Shown here: piece by piece, positions 2,580 to 63,123 of the stretch
Numbering within the stretch: the stretch's first letter is position 1
How the letters are laid out: each line of letters starts with the position of its first letter
Assembly (NCBI GenBank): GCA_031279415.1
Contig: JAITIP010000020.1
Coordinates: 1 to 63,123 of the forward strand
Direction of reading: 5' to 3'
Length of the DNA stretch: 63,123 nt
From: Candidatus Endomicrobium procryptotermitis
GTDB taxonomy: Bacteria; Elusimicrobiota; Endomicrobiia; Endomicrobiales; Endomicrobiaceae
Program-made: the position numbers and the translations under genes
Notes under the pieces: generated by a model
What the model was told of the DNA's origin: nothing
The model's database searches: none
Seen by the model: only the letters and a program-made list of their open reading frames with translations

Positions 2580-2601
2580 TTTTAATTCTCCTTAATTATT
2601 T

Positions 2602-3105: not shown

Positions 3106-3126
3106 AATAAACCTCCTATTGCAAAT

Positions 3127-3327
3127 TTATTTTTTGTTACGGATAGAAGCGGCAAGACAAGAAGGGCATTCATCATATTCAGCCGCATAACGTGCTTTGC
3201 AGCGGGCACATATTTTTATTTTTTCATTGGGAATAATACCGCACAATCTGCAAAACCCCGGATGGAAACAACCCATTTTAAGTTCCGTTTCACAATGCGG
3301 GCAGGAGCAACTTTTTATTTTCCGCAT
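3127..3327 (-). CDS. Small double zinc-ribbon protein
   Basis: 66 aa with four CxxC pairs (CPHC, CRLC, CARC, CPSC), giving two predicted zinc- or iron-binding knuckles. It starts 2 bp after the iscU stop and ends 21 bp before ferritin, so it is co-transcribed with Fe-S and iron genes. No specific family is recognised. It could be a metal-binding accessory protein of the operon; this is a guess from context only. The tight spacing and dense Cys pattern support it as a real gene. Confidence 0.7.
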   Translation of the reverse strand: MRKIKSCSCPHCETELKMGCFHPGFCRLCGIIPNEKIKICARCKARYAAEYDECPSCLAASIRNKK

Positions 3328-3329
3328 AA

Positions 3330-3704
3330 TTATTTACCTTTGGATTTATAATTTTCTATTGCTTTATGCAAAGCGGCGGCACCTAAATTTGAACAATGCA
3401 TTTTGTTCGGAGGTAATCCGCCTAAAGCTTCAGCAACTTGAGCATTTGTAAGCTGCATGGCTTCGTCAAGCGTTTTGCCTTTAGCCATTTCTGCTACCAT
3501 TGAAGATACAGCGATCGCGGCGCCGCAGCCAAAAGTTTTAAATTTAACGTCTTCAAGTATATTATCTTTAACTTTAATGTAAAAAGTCATCATATCGCCG
3601 CATATGGGATTACCGACTTCTCCTATGCCGTCGGCATCTTTTATTTCTCCGACATTACGTGGGTTTGCAAAATGATCCATAACTTTTTCCGAATAGAACG
3701 CCAT
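3330..3704 (-). CDS. iscU: IscU/NifU-N type Fe-S cluster scaffold
   Basis: 124 aa, standard length for IscU. The three cluster-ligand cysteines are present: GNPICGDMM (about 35), FGCGAAIA (about 60) and MHCSNLG (about 104), with the conserved Asp after the first. It builds 2Fe-2S and 4Fe-4S clusters on sulfur supplied by a cysteine desulfurase. It lies 78 bp downstream of an IscS-like gene whose product lacks the usual PLP lysine, so the sulfur source in this pair is open to question. AAAAAGGAGAA-type ribosome binding sequence precedes the ATG. Confidence 0.95.
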   Translation of the reverse strand: MAFYSEKVMDHFANPRNVGEIKDADGIGEVGNPICGDMMTFYIKVKDNILEDVKFKTFGCGAAIAVSSMVAEMAKGKTLDEAMQLTNAQVAEALGGLPPNKMHCSNLGAAALHKAIENYKSKGK

Positions 3705-3782
3705 CTTTTTTTCTCCTCAAAACTGCCGTTTTAAAAACAATTTTATTTTATAACGCAAATCTTAAATCGCTTAAAAAAATTA

Positions 3783-5039
3783 TCACTTCTCATCGCAAAT
3801 ATCACAGTGTTCATGGTCATTATCGTCATAATCCGTACCAGGTCCTGCTTTCATTCTGCTGCCTGTTTTAAGAAAATGTGAATATAGCGGTGACATATCT
3901 CTCAGTTTTTGTACAACAGGGGGAAATTCTTCAATTAGATAATCTATCTCTTCTTCGCTATTGTATTTTGAAAGCGTAAACAAAATAGAACCCTGCCCTA
4001 CGGCGACATCCACATTCATTGCGGTTAAAACATGAGAAATTTTAAGATTTTTATTTGCACACGCAGAACCGCTTGCTGCCATAATTCCTTTTGCATCCAA
4101 CAACAAAAACAGAGCTTCACCCTCAACAAATTCTATCGAAAAATTTATGTTTCCCGGAAGACGGTTTTTCTTGCTGCCGTTGAGATAAATGTAAGGGATT
4201 TTTTTTGGGAGTTCTGAAATCAGCTTATCCCTGAGATTTCTCATTTTTTCGGCATTTTTCACCATTTCAGATTTTGCAATCTCGCAGGCTTTTGCAAATC
4301 CTGCTATAGCCGCAACATTTTCTGTTCCTGAACGTTTCGAATTTTCTTGAACCCCGCCTTCAATCTGTGGCGTAATTTTTACGCCTTTTTTAAGATAAAG
4401 CGCAGCCGCGCCTTTTGGCCCGTACATAACGGAAGCGGAAAAAGTTAACGCGTCAACACCGAAATCTGCTGCATCAATGGGAATCGTCCCACATGCACTT
4501 ACCGCGTCCGTATGAAAAAGTGCTTTGCTTTGAGATTTAACTATTGAGACAAGTTTTTTGATATTTTGAATTGTGCCGACTTCCGGGTTTGCAGTCTGGA
4601 TTGACACTAAAATCGTATCATTTTTCAACGATTTTTTAAGTTCTTCCTCAAAAATGTTTCCCTCCTTGTCAACCGGAAGATAAGTTATTTCAAAACCGTC
4701 TTTTTCTAGTCTTCTTGCCGCATTCAATATTGAAATATGTTCTATGGCGGATACTATTATATGCTTGCCTGACTTTTTATAAGCGTCCGCAATACCTTTC
4801 AGCGCCAGATTATTTGATTCCGTCGCGCATGAAGTAAAAATTATTTCTTCTGGCTTAATGTTTATTAATGTGGCAACCTGTTTTCTGGCTTCTTCAACAG
4901 CATTTTTTGAAACCGAACCCAAAGAATAAATGCTTTGTGGATTACCATAATAATCCAAAAAATACGGTTTCATTGCTTTAAAAACATTTTCGTCAATTTT
5001 TGTATTTGACTGATTGTCAAAATAAATCTGTTTCATCAT
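3783..5039 (-). CDS. NifS/IscS-like cysteine desulfurase homologue lacking the PLP lysine
   Basis: 418 aa, an aminotransferase class V fold. Retained features are ATESNNLALKG, the stacking His in AIEH, HTDAV with the PLP Asp, KRSGTEN, and the active-site loop GSACANKNLKISHVL with its Cys. The position of the Schiff-base lysine is changed: the family has S-x-H-K-x-x-GPKG, but here it reads FSASVMYGPKG, so His-Lys has become Ser-Val (Val204, codon 4428-4430). The Gln after the PLP Asp and one Asn in the ANPEVG segment also differ. The reading frame is intact. The C-terminus adds an acidic, Cys/His-rich tail (HEHCDICDEK). It lies next to iscU and rubredoxin. It may be non-canonical or inactive as a desulfurase. 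Confidence 0.85.
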   Translation of the reverse strand: MMKQIYFDNQSNTKIDENVFKAMKPYFLDYYGNPQSIYSLGSVSKNAVEEARKQVATLINIKPEEIIFTSCATESNNLALKGIADAYKKSGKHIIVSAIEHISILNAARRLEKDGFEITYLPVDKEGNIFEEELKKSLKNDTILVSIQTANPEVGTIQNIKKLVSIVKSQSKALFHTDAVSACGTIPIDAADFGVDALTFSASVMYGPKGAAALYLKKGVKITPQIEGGVQENSKRSGTENVAAIAGFAKACEIAKSEMVKNAEKMRNLRDKLISELPKKIPYIYLNGSKKNRLPGNINFSIEFVEGEALFLLLDAKGIMAASGSACANKNLKISHVLTAMNVDVAVGQGSILFTLSKYNSEEEIDYLIEEFPPVVQKLRDMSPLYSHFLKTGSRMKAGPGTDYDDNDHEHCDICDEK

Positions 5040-5047
5040 CGTTTCCT

Positions 5048-5206
5048 TTATATCTTTTCAAACATTTCCTTGCTTACGCCGCAGATAGGGCAAGTCCAAT
5101 CATCGGGAATTTGCTCAAAAGGCGTTCCCGAAGCTATTCCTGAATCTGCATCACCTGTTGTAGGATCATAAATATAACCGCAGGCCGAACATTTCCATTT
5201 TTCCAT
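5048..5206 (-). CDS. Rubredoxin (52 aa)
   Basis: Found by reading the minus strand between the IscS-like gene and perR. The ATG is at 5206 and the TAA at 5048-5050, giving 52 aa, the classical rubredoxin length. It has the two iron-binding knuckles [10 protein letters not shown] (Cys6, Cys9) and [10 protein letters not shown] (Cys39, Cys42). A GGAGG-type ribosome binding site lies just upstream. It is a small one-electron carrier and the likely electron donor to the rubrerythrin, flavodiiron protein and perhaps superoxide reductase in the same operon. The gene is 42 bp after perR and 8 bp before the IscS-like gene. Confidence 0.95.
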
Positions 5207-5248
5207 AATTTTCCTCCCCCCATAAAAATTACTTCAATTTCAATTGTA

Positions 5249-5659
5249 TTATCCTTTTTTATTATCACTTTTGCAAGCTTTGCAAACGCCGCTGTAACAG
5301 ATAAAAACATCCTCTACTTTATGCCCATCAATAGCGTGTTTTAAAATATTTTTATAGCATATTTTCACATCGTATATTCTTCCGCATTTGCTACATACAA
5401 AATGGCAATGAGGTTCGGTATTCGCATCAAAACGCATTTCGGAATTCTTCATTTTAATACATTTTATTATTCTTTCTTTGACAAGTTTATTAACCGTATT
5501 ATATATAGTAGTTTTGGAAACCGTGGGAATATCTTTAACTATCCTTTTATAGATATTATAAGCCGTAGGATGGGAATCAGTATTCATAAGAAATTCTAAT
5601 ATCTTCCTGCGTTGAAAAGTCTGCCTTAAACCTAATGATAAAAACTTATTTGTAATCAT
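5249..5659 (-). CDS. perR: Fur-family peroxide regulator PerR
   Basis: 136 aa. An N-terminal winged helix (GLRQTFQRRKILEFL through TVSKTTIYNTVNKL, about 10-75) is followed by the dimerisation and metal domain. RFDANTEPHCHFVC holds the Asp and two His that form the Fe/Mn-sensing site in PerR, and CSKCG plus CYSGVCKAC form the structural zinc site. It represses by binding AT-rich Per boxes until iron-catalysed His oxidation releases it. It is the first gene of the oxygen-defence operon, consistent with autoregulation. Fur itself is a less likely alternative, because the sequence around the sensing site is PerR-like. Confidence 0.9.
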   Translation of the reverse strand: MITNKFLSLGLRQTFQRRKILEFLMNTDSHPTAYNIYKRIVKDIPTVSKTTIYNTVNKLVKERIIKCIKMKNSEMRFDANTEPHCHFVCSKCGRIYDVKICYKNILKHAIDGHKVEDVFICYSGVCKACKSDNKKG

Positions 5660-5666
5660 TACAATT

Positions 5667-5698
5667 TATAATTATAGCAAATAATTTTATTCTGTCAA
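5667..5698 (-). promoter_or_regulatory. Consensus sigma-70 promoter of the perR operon with overlapping AT palindrome
   Basis: On the minus strand, TTGACA (5693-5698), a 16-bp spacer and TATAAT (5671-5676) precede perR. The -10 is embedded in the perfect palindrome TATAATTATA (5667-5676), which resembles one half of a Per box (TTATAAT). A regulator bound there would block RNA polymerase, so PerR autoregulation of the nine-gene operon is a reasonable inference. Confidence 0.75.
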
Positions 5699-5745
5699 AC
5701 TTTTTGCCGCAAGTGGAGGGCGATTTTTAACCGATTTTTTAATGT

Positions 5746-5774
5746 TTGACTAAATTTTTATAAAATAGTATTAT
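5746..5774 (+). promoter_or_regulatory. Sigma-70 promoter for the PpiC lipoprotein operon
   Basis: TTGACT (5746-5751), a 17-bp spacer and TATTAT (5769-5774), about 42 bp before the ATG at 5816. It faces away from the perR promoter, so the two operons are divergent. Confidence 0.7.
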
Positions 5775-5815
5775 TGAAAAGTATTTTGTTTCAATAAATA
5801 AAAGGAGAAGTGTTG

Positions 5816-6727
5816 ATGAAAAAGATATTATTGTTATTGGTACTTGCCATATTTGTTCTGTCCGCTTGTAAAGAAAAGGCTATTGTAGTTGCAAAAGTGG
5901 GTGGAACGGAAATAACGGACAAAATGCTTGCCGGAAAATTACAAAACACGCCTCCCGCATACCAAAATTACGTAAATACAGCTTTGGGAAGAAAACAATT
6001 CGTTGAAGCCATAGTAAGAGAAAATATTATGATTGAAGCTGCCAAACAGGCCGGCGTAAGTAAAAGAAGCGAATATATAGAAACTTTGGCGGATTTCAAA
6101 CGCGAACAAGAACGACAATATAATGAATACCGTGATGGCCTTTTGATAGAGACATATCTCAGGGAAATACATACAGGAATAACGGCAAACGAATCGGATA
6201 TTGAACAGTATTATGCGGAAAATAAAGCAATTTTTGATGCGCCGATAGAATATATGGTGAAACATATTCTTGTTACGGATAAATCTGAAGCGGAAGCCGC
6301 TTATGCAAGACTTGAGAAAGGCGAAAAGTTTGACGATGTCGCAAAAGAAATTTCACAGGATACGGGTTCCGCGGCAAACGGCGGTTTAATAGGACCTTTT
6401 AAAAGGGGAGAGCTAGTTGCAGAATTTGAAAAAGCCGCGCTTGAACTTAAAAATAATGAGTTGTCCAATATAATTGAAACTTCTTACGGATATCATATAA
6501 TCTTTAAAGTTTCCGAAAATAAGCTTCCCAATATACAGTACGAACAGGCAAAACCTGAAATTAAGAGAATTTTAGAAAAAGAAAGGTTTGACAAATGGTT
6601 TGAAGACACAAGAAAAAAACTTGGTGTGACTGTCGATGAAGTTAAAGCTAGAGCTGTAACAATTATACCACAGATGGAAATTAATGAGTCTAAACTGCCT
6701 GCAAACAACGAATTTTCGGAAAATTAA
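5816..6727 (+). CDS. PpiC-type peptidyl-prolyl isomerase lipoprotein
   Basis: 303 aa from the ATG at 5816, which has AAAGGAGAA 8 bp upstream; in-frame GTG and TTG codons at 5810 and 5813 are weaker choices. It has a lipoprotein signal peptide with lipobox VLSAC (Cys18), a SurA-like helical N-terminal region, and a parvulin domain at about 140-235 (VKHILV, SQDTGSAANGGLIGPF, YGYHIIF). It is expected to fold or escort outer-membrane proteins from a lipid anchor in the periplasm. The next gene, 25 bp downstream, is a second parvulin, so the pair probably supplies foldase activity for the autotransporters and porin encoded elsewhere in the window. Confidence 0.9.
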   Translation: MKKILLLLVLAIFVLSACKEKAIVVAKVGGTEITDKMLAGKLQNTPPAYQNYVNTALGRKQFVEAIVRENIMIEAAKQAGVSKRSEYIETLADFKREQERQYNEYRDGLLIETYLREIHTGITANESDIEQYYAENKAIFDAPIEYMVKHILVTDKSEAEAAYARLEKGEKFDDVAKEISQDTGSAANGGLIGPFKRGELVAEFEKAALELKNNELSNIIETSYGYHIIFKVSENKLPNIQYEQAKPEIKRILEKERFDKWFEDTRKKLGVTVDEVKARAVTIIPQMEINESKLPANNEFSEN

Positions 6728-6752
6728 AAGAATTTTAATAGGAGAATGGGAA

Positions 6753-7811
6753 ATGGTAAAAAAATTATTGTCGGTGTTTATGTTATCGGTATTTGTAACG
6801 TGTAATGTTTTTGCAGTTGATTCAGATGTGGATAAAACAATTGCGGTAGTTAACAATGAACCTATAATGGCTTCGGAGTTTAACAAAGTTCTTATTCCAA
6901 TGCTTGAACAGTATAAACAGACGGTTCCTGTTTCAGAGCAAAGCGAAGCTAGAATTAATGAATTTAAGAAGGCCTTGCTTAATCAGAGAATAGAAGACAT
7001 TCTTTTAAAACAGCAAGCAAAAAAAAATAAAATAAAAGTTTCCAAAAAGGAGCTTGGAGATGGTATTGCCCAGATAAAAAAAAGATTTGCCAACGAAGCC
7101 GAATTTAATGCAGAACTTAAAAAAGAAGGCATTACGGCGGCAGAATTCGAAAAAAGGATTGATGAACAGATGTCTGTCATGAAACTTATCGAGCAGACAA
7201 TGAAATCAAAAACAAAAACTCCCGATGAAACTCAGGTAAAGAATTTTTTTGATTTGGTGCAGGTTAAAATGAAAGGCGGTGAAACGGGTCTTTCTAAAGA
7301 AGATGACGATATGGTTGCAAATGTTGCCAATTTCATTAAAAGAATGTCCTCGGAACAGGTAAGACTTAGACAGGTTTTTGTAAACTCGCCCAAAGGTTCG
7401 CCTGCGGAAGAAGTTAAAGCTGCCCAATCAAGAGTTGAAATAATAAAAAAAGCCGTTAAAAGTGGAGATAGTTTTGCCGATATAGCCGCTAAATATTCCG
7501 AAGATCCTGCTTCAAGAGCTAGAAACGGAGATATAGGCATAGTCGTTAAAGGCGATTTGCCTGTAGAAATAGATAAAGTTATTTTTAATATGAACGTTGG
7601 CGAATACACAAAAGATCCCATTAAGACAGATAACGGTTATCATTTCCTAAGAGTCGAAGAAAAGAGAGCCAGTAAAGCCTTTACTTTTGATGAAGTTAAA
7701 AATGATATAGGCGAACTTCTTTATCAGAATGAAGCAAAAAAAGCTTATGCGGCATGGATGCAGGAATTGAAATCAAAAGCTAATATAAAAGACAATTCAG
7801 ATTGGAAGTAA
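6753..7811 (+). CDS. SurA/PpiC-like periplasmic peptidyl-prolyl isomerase
   Basis: 352 aa from the ATG at 6753 (AATAGGAGAA upstream); a longer in-frame start at 6684 would overlap the previous gene and hide the signal peptide. It has a Sec signal (VKKLLSVFMLSVFVTCNVFA), a SurA-type N-terminal chaperone domain (IAVVNNEPIMASEF ... LLNQRIEDILLKQQAKK), and one parvulin domain at about 205-310 (VRLRQVFV, YSEDPASRARNGDIG, DNGYHFLRV). Likely role: periplasmic chaperone for outer-membrane proteins. It has one parvulin domain, against two in E. coli SurA. It is followed after 3 bp by pdxA, the same order as the surA-pdxA pair known in other bacteria. Confidence 0.9.
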   Translation: MVKKLLSVFMLSVFVTCNVFAVDSDVDKTIAVVNNEPIMASEFNKVLIPMLEQYKQTVPVSEQSEARINEFKKALLNQRIEDILLKQQAKKNKIKVSKKELGDGIAQIKKRFANEAEFNAELKKEGITAAEFEKRIDEQMSVMKLIEQTMKSKTKTPDETQVKNFFDLVQVKMKGGETGLSKEDDDMVANVANFIKRMSSEQVRLRQVFVNSPKGSPAEEVKAAQSRVEIIKKAVKSGDSFADIAAKYSEDPASRARNGDIGIVVKGDLPVEIDKVIFNMNVGEYTKDPIKTDNGYHFLRVEEKRASKAFTFDEVKNDIGELLYQNEAKKAYAAWMQELKSKANIKDNSDWK

Positions 7812-7814
7812 AAA

Positions 7815-8735
7815 ATGTCTAAACCCCGTATAGCGATTACACTGGGAGATCCTGCGGGAATAGGACCGGAGATAGTTTTCAGGGCTGTAAATTCTTTGAA
7901 AGTTAAAAGAGTTTGCAGCCCTGTGATTTTTGGCGATAGGCAGAATTTGAATAAATATTTCAAAAGCCGTAAAAACTGCGAATTGATTGAAAGCTCTTTT
8001 GTAAAGAAAAAAATATACATGGGCAGGCCTTCGGCTTTAAGTGGGAAAGCGGCTTTATCTGCGATAGAAAAAGCCGTTGAAAGCTGTGTGAAGGGATACG
8101 CAGAAGCTCTTGTTAACGCGCCGGTATCTAAAGAATCGTTTAAACTTGCCGGCTCAAATTATCCCGGACATACCGAGCTCTTGGCAGATTTAACCAATAG
8201 TAAGGAAGTTGCGATGATGATGGTTTGCGGTAAAATTTGCGGTGCAATGGTTACGCGGCATATTCCTTTATCCGCCATATCTTCAAATATTAAAACGAAG
8301 GATATAGTTGGAACAGTAATGATTGCACACGCTTTTTTTAATAAACGCGGTAAAAAAAATATAAGAACGGTTTTATGCGCTTTAAATCCACATGCCAGCG
8401 ATAACGGCATTTTAGGCATAGAAGAAAAGAAATTTATTTTTCCAGCTTATGAAATTTTAAAAAAAGCTGGTATTGACATATCAAAACCGCAGCCGGCAGA
8501 TTCGGCATGGCTTAAAACAAAAAATGGCGAATACGATTTAATCTGTACGATGTATCACGACCAGCTGATGATACCTTTGAAATGTATAGATGCTAAAAAA
8601 ATAGTTAATGTTACGGCGGGATTGCCTTTTGTCCGCACTTCTCCCGGTCACGGAACGGCATTCGATATAGCAGGAAAAGGTAAAGCATCGCCAGATTCAA
8701 TAATAGAGGCAATATTATATGCGGCAGGGAAGTGA
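7815..8735 (+). CDS. pdxA: 4-hydroxythreonine-4-phosphate dehydrogenase
   Basis: 306 aa. It makes the amino-ketone used by PdxJ in pyridoxal 5'-phosphate synthesis. Family signatures: ITLGDPAGIGPEI at the N-terminus, NAPVSKESF, YPGHTELLAD, LNPHASDNG, MYHDQLMIPLK (metal-binding His) and GLPFVRTSPGHGTAFDIAGKG at the C-terminus. The length is slightly under the usual 320-330. It starts 3 bp after the SurA-like gene and is followed by an acetyltransferase gene, within one plus-strand operon. Confidence 0.95.
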   Translation: MSKPRIAITLGDPAGIGPEIVFRAVNSLKVKRVCSPVIFGDRQNLNKYFKSRKNCELIESSFVKKKIYMGRPSALSGKAALSAIEKAVESCVKGYAEALVNAPVSKESFKLAGSNYPGHTELLADLTNSKEVAMMMVCGKICGAMVTRHIPLSAISSNIKTKDIVGTVMIAHAFFNKRGKKNIRTVLCALNPHASDNGILGIEEKKFIFPAYEILKKAGIDISKPQPADSAWLKTKNGEYDLICTMYHDQLMIPLKCIDAKKIVNVTAGLPFVRTSPGHGTAFDIAGKGKASPDSIIEAILYAAGK

Positions 8736-32649: not shown

Positions 32650-33051
32650 TACAAGAACATCAGCTGCAATGATTTCGAAAAAATCCATGTATATTTTTAT
32701 TATATAGCCGACTTTCATGTTTTTTCTGATTTTAAACTCTTCCTATATTGCCTGTCAAAAATTACCAACTTCAACATGTTTAATGAGACGTTTGAAAGCA
32801 AACCTCAAATATCCGTTATTGCTTGTCGTTAAGCTTTTAAAGACAAAGGAAGCCATTGCAGCAGGCAGTGTCGTTATTTCTTTTTTTGCTGATAGAAAAA
32901 GGTTTTTAATTCTTCTGCTGCATTGGCAACTTGAATCTACCTATTTGTTTTTTTTATAGTTTATGGCAGAAATTTAATGTATAATAATAATGTCAAGATA
33001 ATCGGAGTTATGGCTGTTTATATATTAATTTATAGAAAAAACGGGTGTAAA
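32650..33051. other. Gap before the GH81 gene
   Basis: About 400 bp. An 80-codon plus-strand ORF (32717-32959) has no good start site, composition or homology and is taken as chance. A short minus-strand run with coding-like composition (VANAAEELKTFF) is too small to call. The GH81 frame extends upstream to 32977, but the signal peptide begins at 33052. Confidence 0.4.
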
Positions 33052-36000
33052 ATGACATTAAAAAATACAAAAAAAAGCCTAATTGCATTTGCGGCATTAT
33101 TGTTTTTTGTTTTAGCGGGTTTTGCGGCTCCCTCGCCGGGCGGCAAAGGCCGCATAGGTTCATACAATTCGACAATGCAGCATTCAAGAGTAACCTCAAA
33201 CGTAAGTTTCCCGTATCCGACAAACAGATGGTTTAGTTCGATTTTTACCAAGCATGGTGATATACATCATTCCTCCTTTAGAATGTCGCCGTCTCCGTGG
33301 ATAATAAACACAAATACTGGGACAACTCAGCAGGGGGGGGCATATTCAAGCATAGGGTATCTTTTAGGATATCCGGAAATAACCTTTTCTGCGGACAGTG
33401 TACATAATGCGGTCAGTCTAGAGCATCCAGTGAAGCAATTTGCAGCCGTAATATCAGGGAATATATCCCCTGCCGAAGTGCTTTTAGACAGCTATTCGGA
33501 TTGGTCGGCAACTTTTATAAGCAGGAATCAAAGTGATAATACAAAATGGATAAAAACTACCATCGGTAAAGGCTTTATTTTTACTTATAATGAATATTCC
33601 GATACGGTAAATCCTTCTATACATACTTGCCTAAACACCCCAAACCCCGAACCTTTCGTCGTATATGATTCATCGGGCAATCCTCTTTCCGGAGTATATC
33701 AAGGCGATCGTATTCTTATAAGAGGTTATGATGGAGGCACATCCGGCCGCTATGTTTATTATGCCATTTACGCTCCTGAAAATACGACATTTAATATTAT
33801 CTCTGTACCTCCCGTAAATACAAGAATAGAAATCTCTTTTACTTCAGCCGATAGATATCTTTCCATAGCATTGATAACCGCAGGAGACGACAGTTCTGCT
33901 GCAAAAGATGATGCCATAGAAATTTTCAATGAATATTATAAGTACGCATATAATTTTATTACCGATACTAAAATGTCGTATGTTTTTGACAAACAAAATT
34001 CAAAGGTTAAAACTACTTTTAACTTTACTACGACGCCAAAGAGAACCGGTGCAAGTTTTCTGCCCGGCACGGTTTTTGCACTTTTTCCACATCAATGGAA
34101 AAACTCTTCCATGGCTTTAAGACCTGAAAAATATAATTTCCGTACACTTAGAGGTACGCTGAAAGTCGGGACGGGTTTTTCATTTACTACGGAAAATAAA
34201 TTTTTCGGCATCATGCCCAATCTTACGTATGAAGTGCCCGAAACTTCAAGAAACACAATGCAAAACTATATAAATACCGACAAAAATTTTTCCGCGCAGG
34301 GTTCGGCTGCAGACACGTATTACAGCGGCAAAGCTTTGGCAAAAGCGGCAAATCTCATACCGATTTTTCATCAGTTCGGGGATATTTCAAGCAGAAATCA
34401 GATGATTGAAAAATTAAAAGCCCAACTGGAGCTATGGTATAAAAACGGTTCGGGCTCAAAATATTTTGCTTATGATTCAAACTGGGGCGGCATTATCGGC
34501 ATACCTCATGCTTTCGGTTCAGAAAACTATAATGACCATCATTTTCATAATGGATACTTTATATATGCGTCTGCGATTCTTGCACTGTTTGACCCGCAGT
34601 TTGCCGACAGCAGCGAATATAAAGGAATTGTAGATTTGCTTGTAAGAGACAGTTACAGCCATATTCGCAATGATACGGATTTCCCATATTTAAGGTGTTT
34701 TGACATCTATGAAGGACATTCATGGGCAAACGGCGCGGGCGGCTCCAACGACAAAGGTATTGACCAAGAATCGTCATCAGAAGCCATGAACGCTTGGTCA
34801 GGAATATATTTATGGGGTCTTGCGTCAAACAATCAGGATTTAATGGATCTTGGCGCATACGGATACACTACGGAATATGAGGCGACAAAAGAATATTATT
34901 TAGACACTTCCGGCGAAATTTATGGCGGCACGCCTTATGCGCATAAAAGTATAGGAATACTTTGGGATAACGCAGCTGAGTATGTAGTTCATTGGAATGC
35001 CGGCGGAGAGCCACAGCAGATTATGGGTATTCAGGTGCTTCCTTTAACTCCTGCAATGCTTTACCATGGATATGATACATCTTATGCTCAAAGTTTCTAT
35101 AGTGAAATGTACGCTAATAGGACTGGTCAATTGAACAGATGGAGAGACATATGGCTTAGATATAAAGCTCTCTTTGACGCCGCAGGCGCATTGACCGATT
35201 TTATCGCAGGCGGTTTTTCAGCTGATGATGATGGCACTTCTCTGACTTTTTCTTATCATTTCATAAATTTTTTCAAGGAATATGGTACGGTTGACACAAG
35301 TATAGCTGCGGATGGTGAGTCTTTTTGTGTTATGAATAAAGGCGGCACAAAAAGCTATATAGCGTTTAACGCTTCCACAGACTCTTATAAAACCGTTACT
35401 TTCAAACCCGTAGGAGGAAGCATGCAAGTTCCCCCTATGACAACGGCCGTAACAAAAGATTTTGTAAATTTTAAATACGATTCTTTAAGAACATTGTGTG
35501 CCGACGGAAACAATTACGCTCTATTTATGAACAAATATTCGGATTTAATAACAGTATCAACTGTTTCTGTTCCTTTGATAGATTCAACGTATTATAAGAC
35601 TCTGCCTTTTGCTTTTACTGTTGAAAATTTGGAAAAGGATGTAACGGGCTATGTCTGGCTTTCAAGCATTACCATTCCCTCGGGATTTACAGCCGATCAA
35701 ATAAAAATTGCTGTTTACAATTCTGTAAATGAGTTTCCTGAGAAAACATATCCGCCGCAAGATATTATTTTTAAATCCGAAAGCGGCTCTTCCGCGACCG
35801 TTTTAATACAATCTACGTTTACGAGAACAGCAACGTACGTTCTAGTTATTCCCACGGGTTTACAGCCGCCCAACTTGAAAATAATAAGCGGTACTTTGAC
35901 AAATGCCAAAGACACATCCAATGTTTATGCGTCAATAGATCTTTACGATTCACTTAGCAAATCTACCATTACTGTATTGTCGTCTGACGGTTCGTATGAA

Positions 36001-36651
36001 ATAGAAGTTATCGAAGGCAGGAGTTATATTATTACTCCTTTTGCGGACGCATTCAAGTTTGAACCTGAAAATTATTCATTTACGACATACAATACGGATA
36101 TAACTAAACACTTTAGCGCTTTTCAAGAATATATGCTCAGCGGGATAATCTCTTTTAATGCGAAAGGACTGGGAAATTTAAAAATAAATATTTATGAAAA
36201 TGAGGGGAGTACCGCTACGATAACAACTGCAATCGATGGCAGCTATCGCGGCGAAATATATTATGGGAAAACTTATACGATAACTCCGCAATCCTCGGAA
36301 TACGATTTTTTTCCGCCCTTTCAAATTCTTAATACCGTAGGGCAATCGGATTTGAATATGAATTTTTATGCCCAAATAGCGGCCGATAGATTTATCGTTT
36401 ATCCCAACCCTTATAAACCGTCAAAGCACGGAAATATTGGGATAATGTTTTCAGGTTTAAAAAGCGGGGCCGAAATCAAGATTTATAACATTGCCGGCGA
36501 ACTTGTTTTTGAAGATAAAACTGCTATTGATGGTCCGTATGCATGGTATGGCGAAAATAATTCAGGTTATCAAGCTGCTTCTGGAATTTATATTTATTAC
36601 ATAAAATCCGGTGGAAAAGTACAAAAAGGCAAAGTGGTCATAGAAAGATAA
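33052..36651 (+). CDS. Secreted GH81 endo-beta-1,3-glucanase with C-terminal sorting-like domain
   Basis: 1199 aa from the ATG at 33052. It has a Sec signal (about 1-27), then a glycoside hydrolase family 81 domain (about 45-830). Key signatures: YPTNRWFSSIF, NYNDHHFHNGYFIYA with Asp495, RCFDIYEGHSWANG, and DQESSSEAMNAW with Glu573/Glu577, the catalytic region of GH81. GH81 enzymes cut laminarin, curdlan and fungal or yeast beta-1,3-glucan. Two carboxypeptidase-regulatory-like modules follow (about 940-1110). The last 80 residues (VYPNPYKP ... ASGIYIYYIKSGGKVQKGKVVI) resemble FlgD-Ig/type A sorting domains. A run of eight G (33333-33340) lies near the 5' end. Confidence 0.9.
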   Translation: MTLKNTKKSLIAFAALLFFVLAGFAAPSPGGKGRIGSYNSTMQHSRVTSNVSFPYPTNRWFSSIFTKHGDIHHSSFRMSPSPWIINTNTGTTQQGGAYSSIGYLLGYPEITFSADSVHNAVSLEHPVKQFAAVISGNISPAEVLLDSYSDWSATFISRNQSDNTKWIKTTIGKGFIFTYNEYSDTVNPSIHTCLNTPNPEPFVVYDSSGNPLSGVYQGDRILIRGYDGGTSGRYVYYAIYAPENTTFNIISVPPVNTRIEISFTSADRYLSIALITAGDDSSAAKDDAIEIFNEYYKYAYNFITDTKMSYVFDKQNSKVKTTFNFTTTPKRTGASFLPGTVFALFPHQWKNSSMALRPEKYNFRTLRGTLKVGTGFSFTTENKFFGIMPNLTYEVPETSRNTMQNYINTDKNFSAQGSAADTYYSGKALAKAANLIPIFHQFGDISSRNQMIEKLKAQLELWYKNGSGSKYFAYDSNWGGIIGIPHAFGSENYNDHHFHNGYFIYASAILALFDPQFADSSEYKGIVDLLVRDSYSHIRNDTDFPYLRCFDIYEGHSWANGAGGSNDKGIDQESSSEAMNAWSGIYLWGLASNNQDLMDLGAYGYTTEYEATKEYYLDTSGEIYGGTPYAHKSIGILWDNAAEYVVHWNAGGEPQQIMGIQVLPLTPAMLYHGYDTSYAQSFYSEMYANRTGQLNRWRDIWLRYKALFDAAGALTDFIAGGFSADDDGTSLTFSYHFINFFKEYGTVDTSIAADGESFCVMNKGGTKSYIAFNASTDSYKTVTFKPVGGSMQVPPMTTAVTKDFVNFKYDSLRTLCADGNNYALFMNKYSDLITVSTVSVPLIDSTYYKTLPFAFTVENLEKDVTGYVWLSSITIPSGFTADQIKIAVYNSVNEFPEKTYPPQDIIFKSESGSSATVLIQSTFTRTATYVLVIPTGLQPPNLKIISGTLTNAKDTSNVYASIDLYDSLSKSTITVLSSDGSYEIEVIEGRSYIITPFADAFKFEPENYSFTTYNTDITKHFSAFQEYMLSGIISFNAKGLGNLKINIYENEGSTATITTAIDGSYRGEIYYGKTYTITPQSSEYDFFPPFQILNTVGQSDLNMNFYAQIAADRFIVYPNPYKPSKHGNIGIMFSGLKSGAEIKIYNIAGELVFEDKTAIDGPYAWYGENNSGYQAASGIYIYYIKSGGKVQKGKVVIER

Positions 36652-36688
36652 CTCGCAGAGGTATGCGCACATTTTTCAGGAGAAGCTG

Positions 36689-39469
36689 ATGCGGAAAATT
36701 TTGAAATTTTTAGTTTTTTTATATATTTGTTTTTTATTGACGGATGCTCAGGCTGACGTTTATGTTTCGAGCGCCGCCGGATTATCAAAGGCAATATCCG
36801 ATAACGAAAGCGGCATTTTGGTTCAAAATGGAGGATTTTCTCTGGGAAGCGCTATAAACATTGCAAACTATCCCGCACAATTACATATACGCGCCGATTC
36901 AACTGCGGCAAATTTTTTTGGCAGCTCTTACGGACAGATATTTGTCATCAACGCTTCCAGTATAACTTTTCAAGATATAAATTTTAAAAATATGCAGGGA
37001 AATATTTTTATTGAATCAAAAAATTCATCCTTAAATTTTAATAATACCATATTTGAAAATAATGATTCTGGTTTTGCGCATTCGGCTTTCATGTTTGACA
37101 AAAATTCTAAAGTCAATTTTAATGAAAAAACGGAATTTGCCGATAATAAAGGCAGAGATGGCGGCGGTTTTCATACCGCATACGCGGATATGACGTTTAA
37201 CGGCAAAACTGCATTTATAAATAATAAAGCCGAAAGCGGCGGCGGTTTTTTTTCAATGGGAATATATGACGATGGCAGTTGGAACCGTTCAGCGATTAAT
37301 TTTAATGAAGAAGTAATTTTTGCCTCAAATACAGCTTCTTTATCGGGCGGGGGTTTTTTTGTTTCTGCAAGCGGCATTAATTTTAAAGAAAGTATCTTCA
37401 AATACAATAAAGCGAAAACTGACGGCGGAGCCGGTATTGTTTCCGGCGCAAGCGTAAATTTCGGCGGGGTTGCCTTATTTGAAAAAAATAAATCAGACAG
37501 AAATGGCGGTGCTTTATATATTACGATGAATTATGTAGATACCGTTGATTTTCAGTCCACTTCGGAGTTTAAGGAAAATAACTCGGGAGGCAGCGGCGGA
37601 GCGATATATATGTACGATTCAGTAGTAAATCTGAAAAATGCAAATTTTACAGGCAATAAAGCGGGAGAAAACGGTGGTGCGGTTTTTCTGCGCGGTGATG
37701 CGGAATATGAAAGTTACGCGCAGTTGAATATTAATACGGTTAATAATAGCGCGTCAGACAATAAAACCATTTTTCAGGGCAATATGGCAGCAAGTGAGTC
37801 AAACGCCTTATATCTTGCCGAGTATTCAAGAGTAACTTTTATGACGAATACAGGCGCTTCCGTTGAGATATATGATGGCATTAACTCCGATACGAATACG
37901 GCTTTTATGGTTATAAAAGGAGCGGGCAATTTTAATCTTTATGCGGACGCTTCTCTTTATAATCTTGAATTAAACACGGGCAATTTTAATCTTGGGCCAT
38001 CAAGCAGGGTTGAAGTTATAAATTTGGATGTGGATAAAGATTCAGTTTTAAATATGCGTAGTTTGTCGGCTTCAAACCTGTTAAACGTCAAAAATTTTAA
38101 TTTTGACGGTACTTTAAAAGTTGATGGGAACAAAATAGTTGCAGTGACGACCAAATTGGGAGCAAATAGCAGGCTTGATATACAAACGGATGCGGCTGTA
38201 AATGCTTCGAAAAATTACAGAAAAAGGTATTACAAAATTCTCAATTATGAAACATTAAACGGTTCTTTCGGATATATAACGCTTAATAATGGTTTATCTT
38301 TGTCAGCGCTGAGTGTTGACAGTTCTATATTGAATATTGACAATTGGCTTGTTGTGTCTTTGAAGGGAAACGACACTTCGACAAAATTTTCTGAAATTTC
38401 CGGACTTTCATATAATCAGATGCAGGTCGCAAAAACTTTTGACAGTATTTCTTCCCGGACGATAAGCTTTGACCTTGACGAACAAATCTCAGCTATTGAA
38501 GTTCTTGACAATGATGATCTTAAAAAGTCGGCTTTTCTTGACGCTTCGGGATATTTTCTTGCCAATATCATAAGAAGCGCGGCTTTTGAAAGCGGTAAAC
38601 AGGATATTTATAACAGAATAAGATATCAAGATATCAATACTCGTAACGTAAACGGAATATGGGTGCAGGCAACAGTTCAAAATAGCGAAATTGATGAAGA
38701 TGAAAATTCGGCTGACAAATATAAAGATTACGAAACAGGCGCTCTTTCCGGATGGGACATAATGTTCGATGATTATGGTTTTCTTTTAGGCGTATATGGA
38801 AAATACGCAAAACATCATATACAGCAGGATTTAAAAAATGAAGCGGTGCTTGAAGGTTTTGGTGCAGGCATTTATATGGGAATTCTTAAAGATGATTGGG
38901 AAATAAAATCTTTTCTATCAGCCGGTAGGAATAATTTTGTTGCTGAAAGATACATAAATTATGCCTCTCGTACGGCTGAATCAGATTTTTCTGCAATGAC
39001 CGTTTCGGCTGATTTTGAAGGCGCTATAAGAAGTTATGTTACAGAAGCTGTGTTATTAAGACCTTTTACTGGAATCGAATTTAAAAATGTTGCTTATGAT
39101 TCTTTTAACGAAAAAAACGCCGGCGGCTTGTCTTTAAACGTCAACAATGGGAACTATTCCAGAAGCACTGCGCGCATAGGGTTGAGCGTAGGAAGCGATG
39201 AAGACGTCTCATTTGAGTGGTATGCTGCAGTTGAAGGAAAATATCTTTTAACCGATGAAACTTCAGAAATAATTTCTTCTTTTGCGGCTGCGCCGGACAA
39301 ATTTACAAGTAAAGGTGCCAAAGAGGGAAGCACAATAATAAGTTTCGGCGCAGGCAGCTCTTACAGAATTCTGCACAGTTTTAAAATTTTTGCCAATATG
39401 AGTTATCAGTATTCTGATGGTTATCACAATATCTATACATCCGCAGGCATAAGAGCGATGATTGACTGA
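36689..39469 (+). CDS. Autotransporter with Pmp-like beta-helix passenger
   Basis: 926 aa. It has a Sec signal (about 1-22) and a beta-helical passenger (about 25-520) with many G-G-A/G-G-G-F and F-x-x-N repeats (DGGGFHTAY, SGGGFF, DGGAGIV, NGGALY, SGGAIYMY, NGGAVFL), the pattern of chlamydial polymorphic membrane proteins. It ends in a 12-stranded autotransporter barrel (about 655-926; NGIWVQATV ... FLLGVYGKYAKH ... FKIFANMSYQYSDG ... SAGIRAMID). Likely a surface adhesin. Short homopolymers occur in the passenger (T8 near 37248, T7 near 37353). A barrel-only relative follows 49 bp later. Confidence 0.88.
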   Translation: MRKILKFLVFLYICFLLTDAQADVYVSSAAGLSKAISDNESGILVQNGGFSLGSAINIANYPAQLHIRADSTAANFFGSSYGQIFVINASSITFQDINFKNMQGNIFIESKNSSLNFNNTIFENNDSGFAHSAFMFDKNSKVNFNEKTEFADNKGRDGGGFHTAYADMTFNGKTAFINNKAESGGGFFSMGIYDDGSWNRSAINFNEEVIFASNTASLSGGGFFVSASGINFKESIFKYNKAKTDGGAGIVSGASVNFGGVALFEKNKSDRNGGALYITMNYVDTVDFQSTSEFKENNSGGSGGAIYMYDSVVNLKNANFTGNKAGENGGAVFLRGDAEYESYAQLNINTVNNSASDNKTIFQGNMAASESNALYLAEYSRVTFMTNTGASVEIYDGINSDTNTAFMVIKGAGNFNLYADASLYNLELNTGNFNLGPSSRVEVINLDVDKDSVLNMRSLSASNLLNVKNFNFDGTLKVDGNKIVAVTTKLGANSRLDIQTDAAVNASKNYRKRYYKILNYETLNGSFGYITLNNGLSLSALSVDSSILNIDNWLVVSLKGNDTSTKFSEISGLSYNQMQVAKTFDSISSRTISFDLDEQISAIEVLDNDDLKKSAFLDASGYFLANIIRSAAFESGKQDIYNRIRYQDINTRNVNGIWVQATVQNSEIDEDENSADKYKDYETGALSGWDIMFDDYGFLLGVYGKYAKHHIQQDLKNEAVLEGFGAGIYMGILKDDWEIKSFLSAGRNNFVAERYINYASRTAESDFSAMTVSADFEGAIRSYVTEAVLLRPFTGIEFKNVAYDSFNEKNAGGLSLNVNNGNYSRSTARIGLSVGSDEDVSFEWYAAVEGKYLLTDETSEIISSFAAAPDKFTSKGAKEGSTIISFGAGSSYRILHSFKIFANMSYQYSDGYHNIYTSAGIRAMID

Positions 39470-60402: not shown

Positions 60403-60470
60403 GTATAAATTTTCAATTTCTTTATATTAATATTGTTGCAGATTCTTAAAATTTAGTGTATAAATTAGAT

Positions 60471-60962
60471 ATGAACATTAAAAAACTATTGGCTGTCATT
60501 AGCTGTACATTTGTGTTGATACCTTTTGCTGCAAAAATCGTATCCTCAAATCAAGTGTATCAATTATGCGTAAACAGTGGAATTATAAGCCATTATGCAT
60601 CTCTTTCAGGTGTGCTTCTCAAAATGGTTAACAAAATATCCAACGATTTGGCAGATATTGACGCGTTAAAAAATACCTCAGTTCCCGTCAAAGACAAAAT
60701 GGAAAATACTATGGAAAAGGATTTTTCAGAAGCGGTATTGACTGTTTCTTCTACTTCGGATAAAATAGCAAAAGTAAAGGATAAGGCATTGTTACTTTTT
60801 ACTTATAACGGCAATTATAGCGGTATTGTCCGTGCAGAAAAGTTTTCTTTTAAAGAAAAAGTTTTTTTTAGCAGCTGGATGCTATTATTAATAACTGTAT
60901 TGCTGTTATCGGTAAGAAAGAGTGACACTGATATTGCAGCCATAAACTATTTTTGTATATAA
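60471..60962 (+). CDS. Small two-helix membrane protein of unknown function
   Basis: 163 aa from the ATG at 60471. An N-terminal hydrophobic segment (LLAVISCTFVLIPFAAKIV) and a C-terminal membrane helix (FFSSWMLLLITVLLLSV) enclose an extracytoplasmic helical region (MVNKISNDLADIDALK ... KVKDKALLLFTYNGNYSG). No family is recognised. A strong terminator follows, so it is separated from the large ORF downstream. Confidence 0.65.
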   Translation: MNIKKLLAVISCTFVLIPFAAKIVSSNQVYQLCVNSGIISHYASLSGVLLKMVNKISNDLADIDALKNTSVPVKDKMENTMEKDFSEAVLTVSSTSDKIAKVKDKALLLFTYNGNYSGIVRAEKFSFKEKVFFSSWMLLLITVLLLSVRKSDTDIAAINYFCI

Positions 60963-60965
60963 GTG

Positions 60966-60998
60966 ACACTCGATTGTCAATTCAATCGGGTGTTTTTC
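60966..60998 (+). terminator. Intrinsic terminator
   Basis: ACACTCGATTG (60966-60976) pairs with CAATCGGGTGT (60983-60993) with one G-T pair, followed by TTTTTCTTTT. Confidence 0.9.
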
Positions 60999-61032: not shown

Positions 61033-63123
61033 ATGTTAAATCTTTTCAAATCTTTGAAATTTACAAAATTTGTATCGTTGTTTACGGTTTTATGTTTTAC
61101 CGTATCAAATTTTACGTCAAACGGTTTTGCCGCGTCGCCTGCCGCTGTTGTTGCCGGTGCGCAAAATATCAATGCGTCAGCCGCTTTAAATCCAGAAAAT
61201 TTCGTTATACCTTTTAACATAGGGAGAATTACGGATTCAGTAAACTTTAATACCAACAGGCTTATCGTACAGATTCAGGATCTTCACGCACATGAAGAAA
61301 CGCAGCGCAATATAGCAAGCATATTGTCGTTTTTAGATGCACATTATAAAATCAACAATATTTATGTGGAAGGAGCATCTGGTCAGGTTGACACTTCATG
61401 GCTTGCCGATATAAAAGACGAATCTTTAAAGGGTTCGATACTAAATTCACTTGTGAGCAAAGGCATTTTAACCGGTTCGGAACTATTTTCGATTACTTCA
61501 GGAAAAACGAAAATATTGAAAGGAATAGAAGATAAAAAAACTTATCTTGAAAATTTCCAAAGGCTTATAACCATAGATTCGAAGAAAGAAGAAATAAAAG
61601 AACTTTTTCCACCATTGAAGGAAATATTAGCATATCTGTCTGATTCCATATATAGCAATGAGAATAAAAAAATCGACAGGGTAATAAAAAGATACAAGGA
61701 TGGAAAAATCTCGTTTGGGAAATATTTTGCCTACATGTTAAAAAAAGCGAAAAGTCAAAAAGTGTATTTTGGTTTTTATCCGTCAATAATTTTGCTTTCG
61801 CAGATAACAGATGTTCAGAATAAGCTCGATAAGAATAAAATCAACTCCCAGATAGAAAGTCTTATGAATGATATTAAAAACAATTATTCTTATGGCCAAT
61901 ATAAAGAGCTTATCGAAGGTTCTTCCTCTCCAGAAACCCAAGGGATTTTTTATTTTAAACTTGCCAACTTTTATAATAAGTCTGCAGATAAGAACAAGTA
62001 CAAAGAGCTCGGGAAATTTTTGCAGTTTATAAACTTGAATCAGGAAATCAATCCACTTGATTTGGTTAGTGAAGAAAGATCGCTTATATGGGAAATAAAA
62101 AATAATGCAGCGCAGACAAAAAAAGAAAAAGAATTGATTTTTTTAAGTTCGTTTCTAGATATAATCGAAGCATTTTTAGACAACAAAATTTCTTATGTTG
62201 AATATAAACATATCCAAAGGGAATTGCCGAAATTTAAAAAATTGTGGACAAAATATACAAGAATGTCTGAAGTGCCGGGACTTGCACAATATTTTCCTTT
62301 ATTTAAAGAGTTTTATAAAGTAAATGAAGATAGAAATAATATTTTCATAAAAGAAATAAACGGAAAAATTCCTCAAAAAAGCGAAGAGGTTTTGACGTTT
62401 TCCAAAGACATGGTAATGACGAATGTTTCAGGACTTTTGCAAAACGCAAAAGAGATAGATATAGTCATAACGGGCGGATTTCATACGCATGATGTGTCAA
62501 GAATATTGCAAAATGCGCATCAAAGCTATTTGGTAATAACCCCAAACGTAACACAGGGAGCTGCAGAAGCGGACAGACTTTTTACCGAAGATGTGATGAG
62601 AAAGGCGCAGTATATGCCAGCAAACGCTTTTCAAAAAGCGCTCTTGACGGCTGTTGCATCAGAGAATTTTCAACAACTTACAAACAGCGATGACAAAACC
62701 ATAATAGGAATCTTTTTCCAAAAAAGCATTATAGATGCGCTGGTCTCAAAAGAAGCCGAGGAAAAAGGGCTTGACAAAGAAGAAGTGTCCAAATATCTGA
62801 AAGATATGGAATTTCTTAAAGGCGTGCTTGAGTTGGCCGATGAATTAAAAACTGCTATTAAAAATAAAGGAATAACATTAGAGTTGACAGATATTAAGGT
62901 CACAGACAAAGGTGAAGGTTATAGAATAACCGCAAATGGAAATGAATATATTGTAAGTGATAAAGGCGTTGAAGATGCCGATCAATATAATGTCAAAGAA
63001 GCCAATATCTATGGGATTGCAGGAATTATTACGGGTGCAATTGTTGCCGCCACTTCTGTTTTCGGTATAGTCGCCTCTGTTTCCATAGTTGCTCCTGTAA
63101 TTGCCGTTTTGGGATTAAGCGTG
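61033..63123 (+). CDS. Very long secreted protein with an EreA/ChaN-like N-terminal domain (partial, runs off the window)
   Basis: At least 697 codons from the ATG at 61033 (ACGGAGAAA upstream), with no stop before the window ends. It has a Sec signal (about 1-34, ending NGFAASP). A domain from about 75 to 510 has VQIQDLHAHEETQRNIASIL, IYVEGASG near the start and IVITGGFHTHDVSRIL, then YLVITPNV near the end, resembling the EreA/ChaN/TraB-like fold, in which His and Glu residues bind a ligand. A helical region follows, then a hydrophobic segment (about 675-697) and the window edge. Related N-termini occur on giant proteins in Elusimicrobiota/Omnitrophota-like genomes (from memory). Function unknown. 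Confidence 0.75.
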   Translation, partial: MLNLFKSLKFTKFVSLFTVLCFTVSNFTSNGFAASPAAVVAGAQNINASAALNPENFVIPFNIGRITDSVNFNTNRLIVQIQDLHAHEETQRNIASILSFLDAHYKINNIYVEGASGQVDTSWLADIKDESLKGSILNSLVSKGILTGSELFSITSGKTKILKGIEDKKTYLENFQRLITIDSKKEEIKELFPPLKEILAYLSDSIYSNENKKIDRVIKRYKDGKISFGKYFAYMLKKAKSQKVYFGFYPSIILLSQITDVQNKLDKNKINSQIESLMNDIKNNYSYGQYKELIEGSSSPETQGIFYFKLANFYNKSADKNKYKELGKFLQFINLNQEINPLDLVSEERSLIWEIKNNAAQTKKEKELIFLSSFLDIIEAFLDNKISYVEYKHIQRELPKFKKLWTKYTRMSEVPGLAQYFPLFKEFYKVNEDRNNIFIKEINGKIPQKSEEVLTFSKDMVMTNVSGLLQNAKEIDIVITGGFHTHDVSRILQNAHQSYLVITPNVTQGAAEADRLFTEDVMRKAQYMPANAFQKALLTAVASENFQQLTNSDDKTIIGIFFQKSIIDALVSKEAEEKGLDKEEVSKYLKDMEFLKGVLELADELKTAIKNKGITLELTDIKVTDKGEGYRITANGNEYIVSDKGVEDADQYNVKEANIYGIAGIITGAIVAATSVFGIVASVSIVAPVIAVLGLSV

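Follow-up and report, generated by a model that had tools for sequence, protein, structure and literature searches.

The gene at the 3' edge of the window

In this study, we analysed a window of 63,123 bases from the termite-gut type bacterium Candidatus Endomicrobium procryptotermitis (Elusimicrobiota; assembly GCA_031279415.1), which is the entire contig C20 of a genome of 2,009,061 bases in 46 contigs (G000 below), and in particular the open reading frame that starts at position 61,033 and runs off its right-hand end. We read this frame as the beginning of a gene for a giant modular protein. Labels with C denote contigs or frames of G000, those with L compared loci and those with G genomes. 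The features of the gene, all on the plus strand, are as follows (aa, amino acids):

61033..63123, 5' portion, 697 codons, of the gene for a giant modular protein, which runs off the contig end and is matched by paralogues
61033..61134, signal-peptide-like N-terminus, aa 1-34, recognised by eye from a K-bearing n-region, a hydrophobic core and small residues before S35
61186..62613, head domain, aa ~52-527, a predicted Tiki/Ere/ChaN-superfamily core split by a helical insertion (structure model and fold matches)
61276..61299, motif QDLHAHEE (aa 82-89), whose D83 and H85 are invariant in 57/57 heads
61369..61371, E113, 28 residues past H85, invariant in 57/57
61531..62424, helical insertion of ~300 residues, aa ~167-464 (secondary structure of the model)
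62332..62334, R434, invariant in 57/57
62473..62490, motif GGFHTH, aa 481-486, with G481, G482 and H484 invariant in 57/57
63001..63123, hydrophobic block free of charged residues, aa 657-697, truncated at the contig end; a similar block occurs in 48/92 frames
63005..63123, final 119 bases, the same as those that close contig C21, a repeat at the assembly break (contig-end comparison)
60965..60994, terminator-like hairpin upstream of the gene, 12 pairs followed by a T-run

The ATG frame from 61033 holds 697 codons without a stop up to the contig end, and the stop-free frame as a whole has 719. Since the window is a whole contig, the 3' edge of the gene is an assembly break, and the frame is real and cut off solely by the end of C20. 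The original prediction, made from the letters alone, had described an uninterrupted frame of at least 697 codons with H-x-H-E-E and G-G-F-H-T-H motifs and a hydrophobic segment at the window edge; all of these were found, the motifs as H85-A-H-E-E (aa 85-89) and GGFHTH and the segment as the charge-free run at aa 657-697. The frame is far beyond chance, because 12 other places in G000 match its protein at E <= 1.2e-19 and the codon-position divergence from paralogue C21b (0.27/0.18/0.49) points to constraint at the protein level. Its start, MLNLFKSLKFTKFVSLFTVLCFTVSNFTSNGFAA up to S35, resembles a signal peptide by eye, and the genome's own paralogues were printed with similar starts; this resemblance is the sole basis for calling the protein secreted, and secretion itself is predicted. 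The gene had also been placed after a strong terminator. The 12-pair hairpin is present, but terminator-like sites numbered one against 0.7 +/- 0.8 in shuffled sequence, so that their number alone is not significant and solely the strength and position of the hairpin favour it as a terminator.

Length of the complete protein

Contig C21, whose last 119 bases equal those of the window, ends within a paralogue 61% identical to the window protein. Two minus-strand contigs, C39 and C22, begin with another 119-mer, common to the two, and are open from their first bases for 1,622 and 1,711 aa, respectively. Because the contig ends are equal over 119 bases, we infer that a k=119 assembly graph was cut at a shared repeat; no direct overlap between C20 and C39 or C22 was found. 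In Ca. Endomicrobium neocapritermitis, a single frame (L039) bridges the gap: its alignment with the window protein ends at L039 residue 701, and that with C39 and C22 starts at L039 residue 706. This indicates that ~4 residues are missing at the junction and that the whole protein would therefore have ~2,320 (C39) or ~2,410 (C22) aa. The window thus probably holds the first third of the protein and either C39 or C22 the rest. Both candidate tails finish in the C-terminal tag described below, the ending of the window protein being GVRAMLSAA.

These continuations bear out the term giant, as either gives some 2.3-2.4 thousand aa, and no stop soon after 63123 appeared in either candidate tail contig. 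An ordinary protein of 700-800 aa, or an assembly artefact, could be suspected where a frame is interrupted by a contig end; both readings are extremely improbable, since the tails stay open in frame and are tagged at their end, L039 crosses the junction in one frame, and the same genome has complete members of 1,276 to 10,971 aa inside contigs. We therefore rejected the short protein. The window protein is large, yet not among the largest of its family: its near relatives by head (60-64% identical) have frames of 2,908 (L037), 3,727 (L038), 3,830 (L041) and 5,222 aa (L035).

A model of the C39 tail (predicted local distance difference test, pLDDT, 66.6) contains a TIM-barrel-like domain at moderate confidence. 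A family could not be assigned by fold, as the barrel is generic and the rows for fucosidase, GH18, GH84 and pyruvate kinase all lie at Z 13.2-11.4. Our Pfam search covered 70 of the best 80 relatives (see below), 10 G000 frames and these two tails, one batch listing 25 of its 30 families; neither Pfam nor NCBIfam matched the tails C39 and C22.

A multi-copy family of very large proteins

We conclude with high confidence that the window protein belongs to a multi-copy family of very large proteins, with a common architecture, in Endomicrobia and some other Elusimicrobiota. One of the 12 further matches in G000 is a fragment with a stop (C33), and the family pieces of this genome, including C39, C22 and C17, sum to 105.9 kb, or 5.3% of the assembly. 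When all frames were compared with each other, the first ~500-600 aa proved common to nearly all of them (G000 frames matched 89-91 of the 91 other frames), and matches further along were few. A 12-row alignment of heads, used to scan species genomes, gave 281 confirmed relatives out of 290 stretches, of which the best 80 were kept. By title, these best 80 of 281 all come from Endomicrobia, Elusimicrobia or genera of Endomicrobiaceae, to which Ruminimicrobiellum, Praeruminimicrobium and Proruminimicrobium were assigned. The original prediction had placed very long proteins with similar N-termini in candidate phyla near Elusimicrobiota; the best 80 of the 281 relatives lie in Elusimicrobiota itself.

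Family members were detected in 30 of 99 Elusimicrobiota genomes, namely 20 of 30 in the window's own family, 5 of 5 in the order's other families, 2 of 9 in the remainder of the class and 3 of 55 in the rest of the phylum. Seventeen of the 30 positive genomes have 10-16 matches each, with scoring limited to 14 candidates at first pass, and the longest frame among those listed has 12,656 aa (G079). A one-contig genome of 1.6 Mb (G027) gave no family match. The 15 small genomes (0.6-1.3 Mb) of one genus, g2, carry 0-4 copies each and form a possible decay series of the family along genome reduction; that g2 is an endosymbiont genus is our guess. A contrast between free-living and reduced endosymbiont members would fit Mies et al. 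(2024; PMC11257099), a paper in which a word search for giant, large protein, long protein and similar terms returned nothing. One g2 copy (G085:C20) has five stops in frame.

Contig C17 (L167; 7150 bases) is filled by a frame of 2,383 aa with a phosphoenolpyruvate (PEP)-synthase-like domain that shares 38% identity with its counterpart in giant C37a, and is probably, by this similarity, an inner piece of another giant. A remote member (2,106 aa), which has the motifs IQDAHCN and GGFHTE, lies at 1567-7884 of an IMG/VR contig (L168; 17371 bases) that is filed as viral; it has two HExxH sites and lacks the C-terminal tag. This contig is probably bacterial, perhaps of another phylum. It was the one phage or plasmid link found in searches of IMG/VR and of plasmids, the latter giving no match.

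The head domain is a predicted hydrolase

A structure model of the head built from 57 heads was of good quality (pLDDT 88.4; predicted template-modelling score, pTM, 0.87) and has a Tiki/Ere/ChaN-type fold. Comparison by VIA-align placed ChaN 2g5g (Z 7.5; 179 residues, 5.7 A) and EreC 6xcq (Z 7.3; 172 residues, 4.8 A) at the top, with EreC 6xcs (Z 7.1), Bcr135 3b55 (Z 6.6) and 2rad (Z 6.5) as further rows. Superfamily structures thus made up five of the top six rows, and the sixth, a helical sensor domain (3o1i, Z 7.1), covers the insertion only. D83, H85, E113 and H484, together with R434 and others, are invariant in all 57 heads. In EreC, catalysis involves H50, E78, R261 and H289 (PMC7979712, in the part consulted), and the consulted part of PMC6254334 states that RRSP needs E3900, H3902, E3930 and H4030 and that Bcr135 has H85 and E113. 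The spacing of 28 residues from His to Glu is therefore the same in the window head, EreC (H50/E78), RRSP (H3902/E3930) and Bcr135 (H85/E113), while the acid before the catalytic-type His is Asp in the window heads instead of Glu. R434 is a possible counterpart of EreC R261, an assignment that we infer.

The superfamily reading is convincing in spite of Z scores near 7, because it draws on five entries for three proteins, on both halves of the domain and on the matching residues. The head is a remote relative all the same, since the Z scores are middling, Foldseek alone put EreC first at a non-significant E of 0.2, and no profile matched over its cut-off: for the window protein, Pfam and NCBIfam gave nothing over any threshold, the erythromycin esterase family and PF04187 included. 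The EreA/ChaN-like domain of the original prediction, which had suggested modelling residues 70-510, is accordingly upheld as a distant member of this group. From the fold, the matching residues and the spacing, the head is most likely a hydrolase, namely a peptidase or esterase. Searched as a profile against solved structures, the head gave three weak matches, all unrelated. No animal Tiki, HopBA1 or PMT structure was among the fold rows listed, which excludes nothing.

Like EreC and Bcr135, the window head has the core fold (Z 6.5-7.3), the His-28-Glu pair, a distal His and an invariant Arg; unlike them, it contains the ~300-residue helical insertion, is matched by no family profile and fronts proteins of 1,276 to >12,000 aa. 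ChaN (Cofac_haem_bdg, PF04187) is the top fold match and the family of a weak profile match in one own paralogue, but the window head, to judge from its residues, would differ in retaining the Ere-type hydrolase constellation.

The hydrophobic block, the HExxH motif and the P-loop-like region

Beyond the head, the hydrophobic block measures 41-62 residues in 34 of the 48 frames that have it, and begins 125-200 residues past GGFH in 40; several of the 44 frames without it are cut by contig ends. An HExxH motif occurs in 39 of the 79 frames with enough sequence, against a mean of 0.51 and a maximum of 4 in shuffles, and lies 250-460 residues past GGFH in 36 of them; 35 of the 39 also bear the block. 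As both candidate tails carry it near residue 100 (NHELMHIKG in C39, NHELVHIKG in C22), the window protein has the motif, a short way past its block, with either of them. One relative matched Peptidase_M48 (E 2.3e-11) somewhere along its sequence. Downstream of HExxH, 18 of 35 frames show a P-loop-like motif, such as TGAGKT, TSGGKT or MGKGKQ; the case in L111 is a loose match, and four MGKGKQ cases are without the usual T or S. SecA_DEAD matched C13 and at least four of the 70 relatives scanned. Across the phylum, among the matches listed, it found the ordinary SecA in every genome and a few weak matches in long frames.

A C-terminal tag shared by the giants

Most giants with a closed 3' end share a short C-terminal tag with a consensus of about [IV][KR]AIL[SAR]AA. 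The pattern [ILMVA][LMI].[AS]A at the end was found in 26 of 30 such giants (L051, L105, C39 and C22 having an open 5' end) and in 2 of the 784 remaining frames with 120 aa or more in the same loci. Over their length, both of these frames align to tails of giants, L043 with C22 and L037, and L074 with L064. L is found at position -4 in 25 of the 26 tagged proteins, A at -1 in all 26 and A at -2 in 23, and position -3 is occupied by S (13), A (5), R (4) and by Q, K, E and G (one each).

Nonpolar C-termini serve as protease signals, and the alanines at -1 and -2 would suit a degradation signal, either ssrA-like or for a periplasmic tail-specific protease, with the giants being short-lived or regulated. 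We regard this as quite improbable: the two transfer-messenger RNA (tmRNA) tags that were read carry I at -3, where the giants have S, A, R, Q, K, E or G. The tmRNA of G000 (L169) encodes, by hand translation, a tag ending GFGFMPIAA, and ARAGORN reads ...GFGAMPIAA in that of L072. Since both of these tags end in MPIAA, the tag of the giants is not a plain copy of them. The L169 tmRNA scored 172 bits with Rfam, yet was not called by ARAGORN.

Variable bodies with recognisable enzyme modules

Pfam hits in the 70 relatives scanned include PGM/PMM domain I (in seven), PGI (in three) and PGK (in two), and, in one or two each, adenylate kinase, NUDIX, GH94, a starch-synthase domain, HD, ABC1 kinase, M48, metallophosphatase, cytidine deaminase and others. 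The G000 bodies showed PEP-synthase-like (C37), GT2 (C18) and MFS (C36) domains, with sub-threshold RelA/SpoT and DUF218 in C19, and GA modules were found in 2 of the 21 members of one Pfam batch. NCBIfam found little in the first five frames, and a stretch of 2,990 aa from the C19 body had no match in G000 besides itself. L038 carries UDPGP, PGI and PGM in order, spanning the steps from fructose 6-phosphate (F6P) to UDP-glucose; its UDPGP match is weak (E 3.4e-5, with no NCBIfam match), and hydropathy predicted no membrane segment beyond its signal-like start.

The PGI modules of L038 and L052 reach 613 and 651 bits against an NCBIfam cut-off of 492 for glucose-6-phosphate isomerase, and L038, L047 and L052 keep the motifs SKTFTT.ET, GGR[YF]S, QQ.YMES, QHS and FDQ.GV.LGK. 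In L047 and L052, GTAGT stands in place of the ordinary GEPGT; which PGI residue is the catalytic base is here our assumption. The PGM motif TASHN is kept in L038, L047, L052 and L054. In L047 and L052, a Ruminimicrobiellum pair, aa 1475-2379 (covering most of PGI and the beginning of PGM) are 80-86% identical against 66-72% for the head and 48% for the preceding segment, in which PGI starts. Divergence in this stretch is 0.06-0.09 at second positions and 0.42-0.53 at four-fold sites; in this pair, PGI-PGM is under purifying selection. The bodies differ in constraint, since L093 and L097 from aa 1501 are near neutral (0.07 at second positions against 0.08 at four-fold sites).

Separate ordinary pgi and pgk genes were present in all five genomes examined. 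The PGI modules are 39-50% identical to the ordinary PGIs, and the PGK modules 31-33% (L035 protein) and 48-49% (G002) to the ordinary PGKs. In a tree of three giant and 15 ordinary PGIs, the giants formed one group (support 1.00) on a long branch among the PGIs of Endomicrobia, with an exact place supported at 0.83; the tree had no outgroup from another phylum, covered 15 of 30 fetched ordinary loci, read on the plus strand, and lacked L140, L142 and L155, probably owing to the seed motifs. With this identity and this nesting on a long branch, the modules look like old paralogues, and recent capture of neighbouring genes was rejected on the same grounds. A giant begins 0.65-2.4 kb downstream of an ordinary pgi, on the same strand, in at least 9 of the 22 genomes that have heads and this type of pgi (G000, G015, G018, G024, G048, G050, G058, G062 and G101), and pgi lies at a contig end in four others (G033, G035, G087 and G097).

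Comparison of paralogues within G000 suggests exchange between them, as judged from the sequences: along C39 and C22, blocks of 0.99 DNA identity alternate with blocks of 0.37, and near-identical patches lie within the otherwise diverged genes C20/C21b and C4/C37b, although the number of such patches is biased upward because assemblies break at them.

Comparison with known giant and modular proteins

MARTX toxins have constant ends and a swappable multi-domain middle, as the giants do. They also include a part of the Tiki superfamily, RRSP (PMC6254334, in the part consulted). In the Elusimicrobiota giants, however, the Tiki-like part is the constant head and not cargo, the start is of Sec type and the C-terminus differs; no RTX repeats or cysteine-protease domain were among the Pfam families listed for the proteins searched. 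Polymorphic toxins, in the portion of PMC3482391 consulted, likewise combine a constant N-terminus with a variable remainder, but the giants have a constant C-terminal tag (26/30), the reverse of a toxin tip that varies. Compared by description, and on excerpts of the articles, the giant proteins of Omnitrophota and Elusimicrobiota resemble ours in their very long frames (PMC11573180; PMC10066038; PMC12057145). According to these excerpts, Elusimicrobiota are rich in proteins of >5,000 aa without a COG assignment (PMC11573180), and giant proteins of sister lineages have been interpreted as predation or adhesion proteins (PMC10066038; PMC12057145).

Within the accessible text of open-licence PubMed Central articles, excluding preprints, we found no published account of this head, tag or enzyme content; the West-Roberts 2023 preprint on giant genes may include family members. 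The family provides a shared handle for huge unassigned Elusimicrobiota proteins, through a head with predicted catalytic residues, a searchable tag and nameable enzymes, and makes the question of giant-protein function in these phyla testable on single domains of ordinary size.

Proposed mechanism and alternatives

The best explanation overall, with family, architecture and mechanism taken together, falls somewhat short of an even chance. Its mechanistic part, in which the giants would be self-processing exported multi-domain effectors or envelope enzymes, is a tentative reading that we rate slightly lower still. The signal-peptide-like start would direct the chain to export by Sec. The head, as an Ere/RRSP-like hydrolase, and the HExxH domain would act as peptidases or esterases in processing either the chain itself or a target, and the hydrophobic block would anchor the chain in the membrane or carry part of it across. 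The C-terminal tag may be read by one dedicated sorting or processing partner, and the modules of the body (enzymes of sugar phosphates and nucleotides, and ATPase-like domains) would work not in the cytoplasm of the cell itself but in the envelope or in an adjacent cell. Constant ends with a swappable middle would then amount to a MARTX-like delivery logic assembled from unrelated parts. It is unlikely, though conceivable, that one catalytic head and an eight-residue tag form a delivery system spanning the Elusimicrobiota lineage, which would export sugar-phosphate enzymes as portions of single chains (in L038 the run UDPGP, PGI and PGM), perhaps into partner protists or bacteria, while recombination would exchange modules between paralogues.

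Several observations weigh against the exported, self-processing proteins that we propose. ATP, UTP or sugar phosphates are required by most of the enzymes recognised in the bodies; these substrates are cytoplasmic, and exporting the enzymes would be wasteful unless they were delivered into another cell. Around the 48 blocks, K/R residues are more numerous after the block in 13 cases and before it in 29 (the window protein and C21b being without a downstream flank), so that flank charges leave the topology undecided and lean against an odd number of spans. Pfam sees the head merely as a weak ChaN match in one own paralogue, C18 (PF04187, E 0.0012, 19.3 bits against a cut-off of 27.7), and gave no confident match for the HExxH region in the 10 segments searched. 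Some bodies (L093/L097) evolve almost neutrally, and 4 of 30 giants are untagged (L062, L065, L074 and L085), although a tagged tail sits in a separate frame downstream of the L074 head frame.

The substrate need would be solved if the giants were membrane-anchored scaffolds, with an external head, a block that makes an odd number of membrane crossings and an internal body (PGI, PGM, UDPGP, PGK, PEP-synthase-like, SecA-like). The modules of L038 would there serve the route from F6P through glucose 6-phosphate and glucose 1-phosphate to UDP-glucose, a giant does follow pgi closely in at least 9 of 22 genomes, and a block of 41-62 residues is enough for two or three spans. We consider this arrangement doubtful, as it is not favoured by the flank charges, 44 of the 92 frames have no block, ordinary pgi and pgk are present separately in all five genomes examined, and the enzyme-rich L038 is itself without a membrane segment after its signal-like start. 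A body inside the cell would account for the substrates and not for L038. The giants might otherwise be surface or cell-contact proteins, such as adhesins or armour, in which enzyme folds are non-catalytic building blocks. Giant proteins of Omnitrophota and relatives have been so interpreted (PMC10066038 and PMC12057145, in the parts consulted), and the GA modules and the fast-evolving bodies of the L093/L097 kind would agree with such a role; it is nevertheless improbable, given that the PGI and PGM catalytic motifs are kept, within the most conserved stretch in L047/L052, and that the catalytic-type constellation of the head is complete in 57 of 57.

Other open frames in the window

Two adjoining large open stretches, which were not among the family matches of the window protein in G000, lie at 32935-36648 and 36644-39466 (1,238 and 941 codons) and have signal-like starts. 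Directly 5' of the giant gene, at 60456-60962, a frame of 168 aa, for which Pfam gave merely a weak DUF603 match under the cut-off (E 0.021), has hydrophobic stretches at both ends.

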